DNA of 64,000 nt from Pantoea vagans (lineage in GTDB: Bacteria; Pseudomonadota; Gammaproteobacteria; Enterobacterales; Enterobacteriaceae), in contig NZ_CP038854.1 in NCBI RefSeq assembly GCF_004792415.1, positions 1-64,000 of the forward strand. Reading direction: 5' to 3'. A program made the translations under genes and the position numbers. Below the pieces are notes generated by a model. That model was given only the letters and a program-made list of their open reading frames with translations, was not told the origin of the DNA and made no database searches. This document shows positions 55,552 to 61,324 of this stretch, piece after piece (positions within the stretch are counted from its first letter, which is position 1; every line of letters starts with the position of its first letter).

Positions 55552-56232
55552 ATGAAAATTTTAATGGTTTTGACCTCGCATGATGAGTTGGGTACCACCG
55601 GCAAGAAGACGGGTTTCTGGCTTGAAGAGCTTGCCGCACCTTACTATGCATTCCTGGATGCGGGCGCTGAGATTACTCTGGCTTCACCGAAGGGTGGACA
55701 GCCGCCACTCGATCCAAAAAGTGATGAACCTGATTCTCAGACTGATGAGACACGCCGCTTCCATGCTGACTCTGCTGCTCAGACCGCGCTGGCCTCGACC
55801 GTAAGGCTTGATACGGTTAATCAGGAAACGTTTGATGCCGTGTTCTATCCTGGCGGCCATGGTCCGTTATGGGATCTGGCTAACGACAAACACTCCATTT
55901 CGCTGATTGAGCAAACCCTGCAGGCTGGCAAGCCGGTGGCACTGGTTTGTCATGCACCTGGTGTTCTGCGTGATGTGAAAAACGTTGATGGCACACCGCT
56001 GGTGAAAGGCAAGAAAGTAACCGGGTTTACTAATAGCGAAGAAGAGGGCGTTGGCCTGACTGACGTCGTGCCTTTCCTGGTGGAAGATGTGCTGAAACAG
56101 AATGGCGGTCTTTACTCACGCGGTGATGACTGGCAATCCTACACTGTGCAGGACGGCTTGCTGATTACCGGACAGAACCCAGGTTCGTCGGCTGAGACCG
56201 CGAAAGTCTTACTTTCAAGTCTGGCGAGTTAA
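55552..56232 (+). CDS. DJ-1/PfpI-type protein (Hsp31-like)
   Basis: 226 residues of the type 1 glutamine amidotransferase/DJ-1/PfpI superfamily. The nucleophile elbow is ALVCHAPGVL with Cys133 and His134; an acidic residue partner is likely Glu25 in GFWLEELA; YPGGHGPLWD is near 99-108. The length and pattern match Hsp31/YajL-like chaperone or glyoxalase III enzymes that detoxify methylglyoxal. It is divergent from a LysR gene and ends at a clear terminator. Confidence 0.85.
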   Translation: MKILMVLTSHDELGTTGKKTGFWLEELAAPYYAFLDAGAEITLASPKGGQPPLDPKSDEPDSQTDETRRFHADSAAQTALASTVRLDTVNQETFDAVFYPGGHGPLWDLANDKHSISLIEQTLQAGKPVALVCHAPGVLRDVKNVDGTPLVKGKKVTGFTNSEEEGVGLTDVVPFLVEDVLKQNGGLYSRGDDWQSYTVQDGLLITGQNPGSSAETAKVLLSSLAS

Positions 56233-56281: not shown

Positions 56282-56449
56282 GTTGCTGAACTCAAGGCAC
56301 AGTGCAGATAGTTACCTGATGAATTATTCAGATCAAATATATTAGGACTAAATTTAAATTGATGCCAACAATTACAGCGCTGGATTTCTCTTATTAACGC
56401 TTAGCTGAGTAAGTCTACTGAAAATATAAACATGTCTTTAAAAACAGTG

Positions 56450-56477
56450 TTGACATCGTTTATCAGATACGTAAAGT
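56450..56477 (+). promoter_or_regulatory. promoter of the predicted long RNA
   Basis: TTGACA (56450-56455) is a perfect -35; TAAAGT (56472-56477) after 16 bp is a plausible -10. The start would be near 56484, exactly where the first stem-loop of the following RNA begins (56485). Confidence 0.6.
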
Positions 56478-56483
56478 AAGTCA

Positions 56484-57013
56484 CATCAGCGGCGTGAAGT
56501 TGCCCTGATACACCAAAAAAATCCCTGGTGTTAGCGTTAATGGTGTCGACAATTTGTAAATATAAGTTGCCGATGGTTCTGTTAAACGAAGTTGTTATTA
56601 ATCGTACATAAGTTAATGACGACGCTGTTAGATGGAGTCTGAGTAAATCTTCGAGAAGTAAGTAGTATCGCGTCGCGATGATGTAAGGCCTCGTAGTTCT
56701 GAACGTTACTTTACGACAGGATACGATTGCGGTTTAAACGTCGTAATGAAAGTAAGGCAACGCATCAAAGAGTATATATCGCGATGGGGGTGTACAGATT
56801 TATACGGGCCTGACCTGTCTTTGTCTCCTGAAAGACTATCAGGTGGTTGAAACCGCTAATAATAATGACATTTCATTATTGTGATCATTATTATCCGCAG
56901 GATCTGTTCATAAATAGCAGTATCGAAGCAGTACCTATCAATTAAGTTAGTTAATGTTTAATGTTAAATCTGTAGTACCTTAAAAGCCCTGACTATTTCA
57001 GTCAGGGCTTTTA
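56484..57013 (+). ncRNA. candidate structured RNA of about 530 nt
   Basis: No reading frame of 60 codons is open on either strand between 56233 and 57282, TAA is very common, and a promoter and a strong terminator bound the segment. Well-paired stems occur in series: ATCAG-c-GGC/GCC-CTGAT (56485-56509), ACACCA/TGGTGT (56510-56531), ATCG/CGAT (56667-56679), CCT-CGT-AGT/ACT-tt-ACG-ac-AGG (56689-56720), TACGA/TCGTA (56722-56745), CCTGA + GTCTTT/AAAGAC + TCAGG (56809-56843) and ATAATAATGA/TCATTATTAT (56859-56894). AAGTAAG occurs at 56656 and 56750 (and at 56474 in the promoter). It is not RNase P, tmRNA, 6S or CsrB-like (few GGA motifs). I recognise no known family. Structure is by eye, not covariation-tested. 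Confidence 0.5.
56982..57012 (+). terminator. terminator of the predicted long RNA
   Basis: AAAAGCCCTGACT and AGTCAGGGCTTTT form a perfect 13-bp stem around ATTTC: a strong intrinsic terminator. It could also work on the minus strand, as it is symmetric. Confidence 0.92.
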
Positions 57014-57889
57014 TCATTTAAGCGTCTCTCTCAGCTTTTGCGGGTGTGTCATTACTGATCGTCATTTCCGAATTCTTTCTCATTAGTCACTCTTTGCCGC
57101 ATTCATGCATGCTTTAATACTCTTCAGTTTGCACATCCTCTTCATCGCTTCGCATCAAGATTTAATGCCCTGCTAAGAGTATTCACAAGGTGTGGCTATA
57201 GCGTTGTCATCAGGAGTAACTGCTGGCATTTACCCTGCGCAAAACCTTCAGAACTGAGTTCAGCAATGAACATCACATCGATTGATAGCAAGACATATTA
57301 ACCATACGCCAGAGCAGGTGCAGCCGCTCCAGCGCAAGCCGCTCTTTGACGTATGCCGTCAAGAGCTGATCAGGAAAAACTACAAATCATTAACAAATTT
57401 AATGGCTATGTCAGTATTGTTTAAGCCTTCGCCAGCAAAGGTCAGCTTAAGCAAAAGATGCCAATCGCATTTTTTGTTGATGCTGAACTCCACGAATAAA
57501 ATCTTCTTACTGCTCGTGTCTGAAACATTTGCATGACAAGCGCTGATGCGGCCTGCCGCCCATCTCTTAGGAAACTTCTTATAAATCAGATCGGTGCCAG
57601 GTTTTTATGTGCCGAACTCTGTGAAATAAATATTTACATTTTAACATTTCCATTAGGTGACCCACTATTTTTAAACTCGCGCCATGGGTGTTTATCTGAA
57701 AGTTCTTCTTTGGATTTATGCTCCTACACCGCGTCATATCGCCAGTAAATGGAATGTACTCGCTTCTGACCCCGGTTCTGCTCATCACTCAATGTTTAAG
57801 AGCAGAAATGTTTCATGGCAGGGTAAGCCGTTTTCAACATTTCCCACTGGCAGTGACGGTATCTGGTACTTCTGAATACAGAGATAGCT
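57014..57889. other. gene-free region before the T6SS operon
   Basis: About 875 bp, moderately AT-rich. Short frames (for example 57282-57536, 84 codons) have no recognisable domain, signal peptide or RBS, and I do not call them. The tssB promoter is presumably near 57600-57880; no operator was recognised. Confidence 0.45.
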
Positions 57890-58387
57890 ATGTCCAGTTC
57901 CTATCAGTCCGAGATCCCCAAAGCCCGCGTTAATATCCAGCTCAGCGTCCACACCGGTGGCGCGCAGAAAAAAGTCGAACTGCCGCTCAAGATGGTCGTG
58001 GCTGGTGACTACAGCAACGGCAGAGAACAGCGTCCGCTTTCCGAACGTGAAAAGATCAACGTCAATAAAAACAATTTCGACAGTGTACTTGCCGATTTTG
58101 CGCCTGCCATCAGCCTGTCGGTGGCCAACACCCTGGCGGGAGACGGCTCCGAAGAGGGTGTCAGCCTCCGTTTCCGCGAGATGAAAGATTTCGAACCGGA
58201 GCAGGTCGCCCGTCAGATCCCTCAGCTTAAAGCGATGCTGGCCATGCGCAGCCTGCTGCGCGACCTCAAGGCTAACCTGCTCGACAACATCACCTTCCGT
58301 AAAGAGCTGGAAAAAATCCTGCTCGACCCAGCGCTCAGCGCTGAGCTCAGAGCCGAACTGGCCTCTCTGACCCCTGAACAGCCGTAA
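57890..58387 (+). CDS. tssB: T6SS contractile sheath small subunit TssB
   Basis: 165 residues of the TssB/VipA/ImpB family: RVNIQLSVHTGGAQKKVELPLKMVVAGDY near 12-40, LSEREKINVNKNNFDSVLADFAP near 50-72, and a helical C-terminus (LLDNITFRKELEKILLDP). Pairs with TssC to build the contractile sheath around the Hcp tube. First gene of the T6SS operon, with tssC 38 bp on. Confidence 0.95.
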   Translation: MSSSYQSEIPKARVNIQLSVHTGGAQKKVELPLKMVVAGDYSNGREQRPLSEREKINVNKNNFDSVLADFAPAISLSVANTLAGDGSEEGVSLRFREMKDFEPEQVARQIPQLKAMLAMRSLLRDLKANLLDNITFRKELEKILLDPALSAELRAELASLTPEQP

Positions 58388-58425
58388 CGGCCGCAAAAAT
58401 TTAACGGATTAACTGAGGAATGCTG

Positions 58426-59983: not shown

Positions 59984-61324
59984 ATGAAAACGGAACAACC
60001 GCTTTGGGGTCGGGGCGTGATGGTCTCGCCCCAGCATTTTCAACAGCAGGCTGCTTATGCAGCCTGGTCTGCTGAGTCTATTGCACAGCTAAGCCTTAAT
60101 CATCCCTGGGGAGTGATTAAGGCGACGTTTGAACCTGAGATGCTCAGGCTCGGGCGTCTGCAGGCTCATCACCTGCATCTCCGGTTTCAGGATGGTGTGC
60201 TGATCGATACTGATAATGCTGACAGCTTGCCCGCTGCACTGTCACTGCAGGATCGGACGGGCATCACAGGCGTCGTTCTGGCATTGCCGCTGTTACGCGC
60301 CAACGGCGGTAATTGTCTGAGCCCCGATGAAGTCGCCGATCGTCCGGTGCGCTTTCGTCAGCGCTGGCATGACGTTCGTAACGCATTTGGTGAAGATAGC
60401 CGTCAGATAGCGGTCATGCAGCCGGAATTGTCGCTGCGCTTTGCCGATCAGGACAACAGTGACTATCTCACCTGCCCGGTTGCACGTCTGCTGCAGGACT
60501 CGCAGGGTAACTGGATGCTGGATGAAACCTTTCTGCCTCCGTTACTGAGAGTTGAAAGCAGCCGCTGGCTGTTGACGCAGCTTGAGCAGTTAATGATCCA
60601 GCTTCGCGCCCGACTTTTTCGTCTGATGGCTATGCGTCGTGAAAGCAATGAAAGAATGGCCGATTTTGCCGTGGCAGATGTCTCTCTGTTCTGGTTACTC
60701 AACGCGCTGAACAGTGCAGAACCTGTGCTCGGCCAGTTTCTGCGTTTTCCACAAAGCCCGGCAGAACGCCTTTATCCTGAACTGGCACGGCTGGCTGGCT
60801 CTCTTCTGACCTTCTCTCTGGAACATCAGGTCAGCGCCATTCCGGTTTATCAGCATGCGCAGCTGAACGCCGTTTTTCCACCGCTGTTCGATCTGCTGAC
60901 CGAGCTGCTGGAAGCGAGTCTGCCGTCCCGCGTAGTGCCTGTTGAACTCACCCATGATAAGCGGCTACGCCAGTGGCAGGCCCGGCTGCAGGATCCTCGT
61001 CTGCGTGAAGGGGCGGACTATTACCTCTCTGTACGCTCGCCAATTCCTGCTGCACAGCTTCAGGAGCAGTTCCCGCTGCAGTGCAAAGTCGGCAGTCCCG
61101 AATTTGTAACCAGTCTGGTGAACACCTCACGCCAGGGTATCCCACTCCGGGCGCTTCGTCATGTTCCGGCGGCAATCCCATTGCGACTTGAAAACCAGTA
61201 CTTCTCGCTCGACCTGTCCCATCCGGCGGCGCAGGAGATGCTGGAGAGCGGCAGTTGCATGTTTTATACCCCAGGCATGCTAGGCGAACCCGAGCTTGAA
61301 CTTTATGCGGTACTGCGAACATGA
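59984..61324 (+). CDS. tssK: T6SS baseplate protein TssK
   Basis: 446 residues of the TssK/ImpJ/VasE family. The N-terminus is GRGVMVSPQHFQQQAAYAAW near 10-29 and conserved core phrases include PLRALRHVPAAIPLRLENQYFSLD near 389-412. TssK links the baseplate to the membrane complex TssJLM through TssL. It follows tssC by 16 bp and overlaps tssL by ATGA. Confidence 0.94.
   Translation: MKTEQPLWGRGVMVSPQHFQQQAAYAAWSAESIAQLSLNHPWGVIKATFEPEMLRLGRLQAHHLHLRFQDGVLIDTDNADSLPAALSLQDRTGITGVVLALPLLRANGGNCLSPDEVADRPVRFRQRWHDVRNAFGEDSRQIAVMQPELSLRFADQDNSDYLTCPVARLLQDSQGNWMLDETFLPPLLRVESSRWLLTQLEQLMIQLRARLFRLMAMRRESNERMADFAVADVSLFWLLNALNSAEPVLGQFLRFPQSPAERLYPELARLAGSLLTFSLEHQVSAIPVYQHAQLNAVFPPLFDLLTELLEASLPSRVVPVELTHDKRLRQWQARLQDPRLREGADYYLSVRSPIPAAQLQEQFPLQCKVGSPEFVTSLVNTSRQGIPLRALRHVPAAIPLRLENQYFSLDLSHPAAQEMLESGSCMFYTPGMLGEPELELYAVLRT

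Follow-up and report, generated by a model that had tools for sequence, protein, structure and literature searches.

What is the stretch of about 530 nucleotides that stands without a protein-coding gene near the 3′ end of a 64,000-nucleotide piece of Pantoea vagans DNA (contig NZ_CP038854.1, positions 1–64,000, hereafter the window)? An earlier note, made from the letters alone, had read it as an undescribed structured RNA with a promoter, an intrinsic terminator and no open frame in between, and this arrangement is confirmed in the sequence (Table 1). The longest ATG frame of the segment has 34 codons, and the window ORF scan gave no ORF of at least 40 amino acids between 56232 and 57282. 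The terminator proved to have a perfect 14-bp stem instead of the 13 bp first counted, with only four U residues after it. Taken singly, these pieces are close to chance in scans. The promoter (10 of 12 matches) is unremarkable alone, as 2.5 kb held five promoter-like sites against 4.1 ± 1.9 in shuffles, and a terminator scan of the window found two sites (2.6 ± 1.7 in shuffles) and did not list 56981–57013. Promoter and terminator are convincing because they are conserved across the copies described below.

Table 1. Features of the segment and its promoter region in window coordinates (all on the + strand)
Feature	Position	Basis
Operator-like dyad CTG-N10-CATG-N10-CAG, abutting the −35	56418..56447	Sequence, 75 promoters, LexA matrix
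Sigma-70 promoter, TTGACA (56450–56455), 16-bp spacer, TAAAGT (56472–56477)	56450..56477	Promoter scan, 112 fetched copies, 75 promoters
RNA gene	56484..57019	5′ end inferred from promoter, 3′ end from terminator
Predicted hairpin at the 5′ end, beginning right after the presumed start	56485..56509	Fold, structure
Module 1 region, approximate borders	56551..56673	Alignment A3
Module 2, closing stem CGCGAT (56674–56679) / ATCGCG (56778–56783)	56674..56783	Alignment, pairing test
Inner hairpin of module 2, TTACGAC (56711–56717) / GTCGTAA (56740–56746)	56711..56746	
29-base core GGCAACGCATCAAAGAGTATATATCGCGA	56756..56784	Alignment, pattern searches
3′ domain, closed by TGTAC (56791–56795) with GTTCA (56906–56910)	56791..56910	
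Conserved 3′ tail with AGCAGTAT-type repeats	56916..56980	Alignments
Intrinsic terminator, stem 56981–56994 / 57000–57013	56981..57013	Sequence, fold, 112 copies, pairing test

The closest named match to the segment by blastn is a Pantoea vagans plasmid, 98.0% identical over the segment. A plasmid of the biocontrol strain P. vagans C9-1 also carries the RNA. Long blastn matches were found in Pantoea plasmids, and only conserved islands were matched in plasmids of Rahnella, Duffyella, Yersinia, Enterobacter, Citrobacter, Ewingella and others; blastn gave no match in phage records and, with two different queries, none in 5,426 E. coli genomes. An alignment of 16 members resolved three islands: a block ending in the −35, the core, and the 3′ end with the terminator. 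Written as a degenerate 25-mer, the core occurs at 73 loci in genome contigs, all from Enterobacterales and from 19 named genera (Pectobacterium, Proteus, Yersinia, Citrobacter, Rahnella, Serratia, Hafnia, Enterobacter, Kluyvera, Pantoea, Erwinia, Shimwellia, Rouxiella, Ewingella, Raoultella, Superficieibacter, Lelliottia, Buttiauxella and, as K. grimontii, Klebsiella). Adding Duffyella, Providencia and Arsenophonus, the family was traced to 22 named genera, on chromosomes and plasmids and in unrelated gene neighbourhoods.

In the fetched loci, the core (at most three mismatches) was found at 112 places. Promoter block and terminator were both present in 107, and the five incomplete copies were all cut by the end of the locus; the complete copies are therefore genes with the same ends. 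Individually, the −35 block ACAGTRTTGAC stood upstream of the core in 109 of the 112 (at most two mismatches; exact in 91), upholding the TTGACA promoter first noticed in the window, and a terminator-type stem was present in 110. The 107 complete copies comprised 91 distinct sequences and 75 without near-identical ones, and leaving out L033 (an insertion) and L078 and L099 (where the called terminator position looks wrong) gave 72; alignment A1 holds 74 of the 75 and alignment A3 32 of the 72, and the same genome may recur among copies from different collections. A −10 of the type TAnATT/TATGTT follows a 16-bp spacer in 67 of the 75 promoters, a count that is too low because the pattern does not recognise the TAAAGT of the window.

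Across the order, the core (at most three mismatches) occurs in 10 of 394 genomes, every one of which is grouped in the family that the window belongs to. Module 2 was also modelled by covariance from 74 sequences, and the model matches 55 of 295 genomes of that family, belonging to 33 of 154 genera, with one match in 47 genomes and two in 8. Within Pantoea, 44 of 61 genomes match something in the segment query, and only 16, the window's included, exceed a terminator-sized match at E below 1e-12. A hairpin nearly the same as this terminator (query 543–583) recurs at other sites in many Pantoea genomes, where the remainder of the RNA is absent (e.g., L010, L011, L013–L023, L026 and L034–L040). 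Large structured RNAs are seldom newly found, least of all in Enterobacterales, the most thoroughly studied bacteria, and one present in this share of sampled genomes and genera may have been overlooked because E. coli gives no match.

No known RNA family was recognised, as the earlier note had supposed: no Rfam 15 family reached its gathering score in the window, in three loci with a copy (L042, L043 and L064) Rfam matched only the neighbouring cspA leader and not the RNA, and three copies searched at relaxed thresholds reached E 0.32 at best. Nor did we find a description of the RNA in open-licence PubMed Central. We call the family undescribed on these two grounds. It fits no described family testable here and, in general type, can be grouped with other large structured RNAs of unknown function.

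The at least seven stem-loops seen in the window carry less weight than the earlier note gave them. The + strand does fold better than all 100 of its shuffles, yet the minus strand does the same (z −5.0 and −5.1, respectively), and 14 members taken without the terminator have a mean z of −0.93, with 4 of the 14 above zero. Because the minus strand folds equally well and the score without the terminator is ordinary, the stems of a single sequence are not evidence and the comparison between sequences is; fold stability was dropped as an argument.

For the comparison, an 80-pair RNAalifold structure was derived from the 32 divergent members of A3. Standard pairs fill 89.3% of its 2522 cells, against 84.2% in shuffles and 37.1–41.5% when the structure is slid by one to three columns. 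Both sides have changed with pairing kept in 33 pairs (shuffles 20.8 ± 2.5, slid 18–20) and in 124 cells (shuffles 43.7 ± 5.8, slid 36–51), numbers that none of 500 shuffles reach, with the caveats that related sequences can exceed shuffles in such a test and that any structure fitted to its own data will outdo the slid versions. Placed on a tree, independent both-side changes occurred four times in one pair (C–G to U–A), three times in two others and twice in a further two, and the pair with the most striking counts (46 U–A, 23 C–G), which belongs to the stem closing module 2, changed once. No pair was significant when a tree-based covariation test was run on every combination of columns (best E 3.2); in a test restricted to 63 proposed pairs, 6 passed against 0–2 in slid versions, the helix GATG/CATC standing out of register and the helix P5 being weak. 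The covariation that the earlier note had looked to is thus seen as both-side changes beyond shuffled and slid controls, but not in the all-pairs test. G–U cells number 301 and A–C cells 52, and, since an A–C is the G–U of the other strand, it is the + strand that folds. Both the slid control and the G–U excess overstate the case somewhat, because the structure was derived from these very sequences and the program used for folding prefers G–U to A–C.

With a known family, a conserved short ORF (see below) and an absence of covariation each checked and none of them found, the reading as an undescribed structured RNA is supported. The RNA nature of the segment and its family are well supported by the comparison, and we regard a real, transcribed, structured noncoding RNA family as very probable.

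The shared architecture is best seen in other genera, because the Pantoea copies keep module 2 and the 3′ end while their 5′ half has drifted from the family consensus. Both tandem modules follow one plan: GCGAT at the start and ATCGC at the end enclose two AAGGCC-type strands, and these in turn flank an inner hairpin. The plan is plainest in L192 (G483) and L193 (G606), two copies from one genus in which all four strands are readable and the module-2 model matches twice in a row, and the two modules look like an internal duplication. At least two copies of AAGGCCNNGNAGT (at most two mismatches) are carried by 64 of the 75 RNAs, but by a single one of 75 shuffled sequences. In Pantoea, module 1 is without the GGCC motif strands kept in other genera. 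The inner hairpin of module 2 is TTGCGAT/ATCGCAA in many other genera, and the closing stem of the 3′ domain, with one mismatch in Pantoea, is fully paired in many others. The 5′ stems of other clades are built from other sequences; a perfect 5′ stem is present in 52 of 72 members against 64% of shuffles, so its presence is not remarkable, and the mean stem score is 12.4 against 7.8 in shuffles. One Pantoea copy (L012; G024:C3:81366-84436), matched by the RNA profile only before and after module 2, may be the product of a deletion or of decay.

The block before the −35 suggests how the gene may be controlled. Among the 75 promoters, CTG-N10-CATG-N10-CAG precedes the −35 in many clades, 14-base units are repeated there in some Serratia and Pectobacterium-type copies, and some other lineages have a full CTGT-N8-ACAG LexA box at the same promoter position; CTG-N10-CAG is found in only nine, mostly Rahnella. 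These promoters were scored with a matrix built from 17 E. coli LexA sites (four verified in K-12), which themselves span 12.8–26.2. The operators of L193 (CACTGTATTTAAAAACAGTA; 20.6) and L192 (CACTGTGTTTAAAAACAGTA; 18.4) rank fourth and fifth among the approximately 1.04 million positions of all loci examined, outranked by one site in L042, immediately ahead of umuD, and by two in L131, of which one precedes the gene for a pore-forming colicin. The nine CTG-N10-CAG copies score 10.6–15.1, with L044 at 15.1, and the Arsenophonus copy L141 scores 14.8 with its box slightly further upstream. Altogether 48 of the 75 promoters lie above the 99% level of shuffles and 7 above the 99.9% level. Most, the window's included, score below the 17 known sites; the window promoter has no CTGT-N8-ACAG box as strong as a known site (best score 7.7), and boxes of that strength occur in other lineages (L193, L192, L044 and L141). 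From these scores we lean towards an ancestral LexA operator that some lineages have retained and that has been weakened or altered in the rest, though the opposite order is possible. Ancestral repression by LexA would mean induction by DNA damage, and SOS control of this Pantoea copy seems rather doubtful. In 12 genomes, the operator had exact matches only at the RNA operators of G000, G002 and G003, and matches with one or two mismatches were about as many as in the control. A comparison with the UP-element consensus gave 8.9 of 14 matches against 6.8 ± 1.7 in shuffles, with the best placement three bases out of register. In L131 (IMGVR_UViG_3300031110_000591), the colicin gene with its LexA-type box lies approximately 1.2 kb from an RNA copy followed by csp.

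The surroundings of the RNA differ from place to place. In the window, the upstream neighbour is a DJ-1/PfpI gene (55552–56232), and a type VI secretion cluster follows (VipA at 57890, VipB at 58420, VasE at 59984); the RNA is not tied to type VI secretion, as the cluster is not a neighbour of annotated copies in other genera. The approximately 880 bases between the terminator and the first secretion gene (57014–57889) are matched over most of their length by the other P. vagans plasmids, and the one ORF tested there (57282–57536) had no Pfam match. Flanking genes vary between genera and often agree within them, and the identity of the RNA mostly tracks genus; a Proteus copy is nevertheless 0.90 identical to a Superficieibacter copy, and the Pantoea copy L009 is closer to Enterobacter (0.75) than to other Pantoea. 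We infer that the RNA has moved between genera, sometimes together with csp genes, discussed below. Standing alone in unrelated neighbourhoods and having apparently moved between genera, it would work in trans. Among the 109 of 149 flanking proteins listed, there was no constant protein neighbour, and the commonest domains were GNAT (7) and cold-shock (4). Linkage to tRNA was considered and rejected, with tRNA genes in only 5 of 60 loci scanned. Two divergent RNA copies of different sublineages lie approximately 1.5 kb apart in L087 (Rahnella rivi) and in L194 (G600:C53:60000-63500), and the former locus also has a csp gene on the far side of one copy.

The reading that we prefer, with a probability of about 0.72, is that of an undescribed, horizontally moving, trans-acting and ancestrally SOS-controlled structured RNA that would be a multi-site scaffold or decoy. 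Positions 56484 to approximately 57019 would be one copy of a large (approximately 450–580 nt), stand-alone structured RNA family of Enterobacterales, started by the sigma-70 promoter and ended by the intrinsic terminator, and predicted to fold into a 5′ hairpin, two tandem modules in which GCGAT/ATCGC closes the AAGGCC-type strands, and a 3′ domain. It would code for nothing and act in trans, and in its ancestral state it was probably repressed by LexA and induced by DNA damage. Transcription, SOS induction and function we infer from sequence. For the function, the repeated AAGGCCNNGNAGT strands may be binding or assembly sites, which would let the RNA act under stress as a scaffold or decoy with several sites for an RNA-binding factor of the host, as CsrB holds CsrA. 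This part of the reading is tentative and falls well short of even odds; we still rank it first, ahead of an assembly made of RNA only and a long base-pairing regulator. The decoy RNAs CsrB and CsrC likewise carry several copies of one short motif per RNA, but the motif here is another, its strands pair together instead of standing in hairpin loops, and the analysis identified neither a protein partner nor a target. That the family represents a new class of DNA-damage-controlled mobile RNA machine, with up to four motif copies, self-assembling or capturing a host factor, and with or without a cold-shock RNA-chaperone gene, strikes us as more doubtful still. Clear ends, a promoter suggesting DNA damage and relatives in easily handled species make the function directly testable.

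The nearest competitors leave the gene as it is and change its task. The RNA might form a multimer, a cage or particle, as GOLLD or ROOL do, and its similar size, its internal duplication, the self-complementary GGCC strands in the repeated motif and the lack of a constant protein neighbour would suit such an assembly. GOLLD and ROOL are large stand-alone structured RNAs of unknown function found on mobile DNA, and the rise of GOLLD RNA during phage lysis, as reported (PMC12286853), is comparable to a damage-controlled promoter here. However, the RNA has no sequence or covariance match to either (if Rfam 15 holds them), GOLLD and ROOL often lie near tRNA islands, unlike the loci scanned here, and they differ in host range, the viral-contig copies of this RNA looking like prophage edges. 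GOLLD and ROOL are its best analogues in size and mystery, not its relatives, and we consider an RNA-only assembly unlikely. To a similar degree we doubt a long base-pairing sRNA whose single-stranded stretches, such as the AGCAGTAT repeats of the 3′ tail, would pair with mRNAs: conserved stretches unpaired in the consensus, an intrinsic terminator and a stand-alone gene would agree with it, but the length is unusual, only four U follow the terminator stem in the window, and conservation lies mostly in the structured core.

In 22 of 107 copies, from 9 named genera, the RNA is followed at 296–366 nt by a CspA-family gene in the same orientation, and the csp-leader motif is present in 27 of 107; in at least five of the 107, the flank is too short to show a csp gene. 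These counts, and a resemblance by eye between the core and part of the E. coli cspA leader, would fit an RNA that binds CspA-family proteins as a decoy or regulator and is tied to the csp gene often adjacent. The leader is strongly conserved in 14 csp-linked loci and the stretch from terminator to leader is variable; csp has a leader of its own, and most copies have no csp gene within the fetched flank. The cspA thermoregulator leader (RF01766) is linked to the RNA genetically, but the RNA is a separate gene, and Rfam matches the leader only. Homology of the two was rejected: none of 124 RNA-profile matches fell in any E. coli csp locus or outside the RNA in the 22 csp-linked loci, the leader profile reached E 12 or worse against 75 RNAs, and in 78 pairwise comparisons the shuffles (100 each) were equalled or narrowly exceeded three times. 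We hold a cold-shock-protein decoy to be quite unlikely. On ColRNAI-type plasmids of Enterobacter (L138, NZ_AP026875.1) and Klebsiella (L139, CP067690.1), only the last part of the RNA is kept, followed by cspG, and in L138 an IS1 transposase gene ends just before the remnant.

The remaining two alternatives deny that the segment is a noncoding RNA, and both are highly improbable. A conserved DNA element, such as a plasmid, replication or recombination site with hairpins acting as DNA, could account for the many plasmid copies and the long inverted repeats, but not for the many copies on chromosomal contigs, the promoter and terminator at fixed places in one orientation, or the 301 G–U against 52 A–C cells, as a DNA hairpin has no reason to favour G–T over A–C. 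The tisB mRNA and IstR are SOS-controlled RNAs, and a structured mRNA for a small SOS-controlled toxin or peptide of the tisB kind would go with the long structured transcript and the LexA-type box at the promoter in some lineages, but the 72 members share no frame on either strand, whether a small hydrophobic ORF of the tisB type or any other conserved short ORF, and start columns used by many of them give unlike peptides of unlike length. The RNA is also much larger than tisB mRNA or IstR and has conserved tandem modules, no toxin frame and, in most lineages, a weak box.

Eight matches were in viral contigs. In one of them (L134, IMGVR_UViG_2840427236_000008), the RNA closely follows the end of an integrase gene and precedes a LysR gene, and because of this position the copy looks like a prophage edge. 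In the region 4375–6274 of L134, the phage-type integrase gene ends approximately 140 bases from the RNA promoter, and the upstream flank of the RNA may therefore serve as an integration site; L132 and L135 have nearby ORFs equal in length to this integrase. One further copy (L043; NZ_CP151862.1, approximately 219971–235831) lies in a 425,507-base Citrobacter record labelled a plasmid, which carries rpoB, rpoC and thi genes, normally chromosomal.
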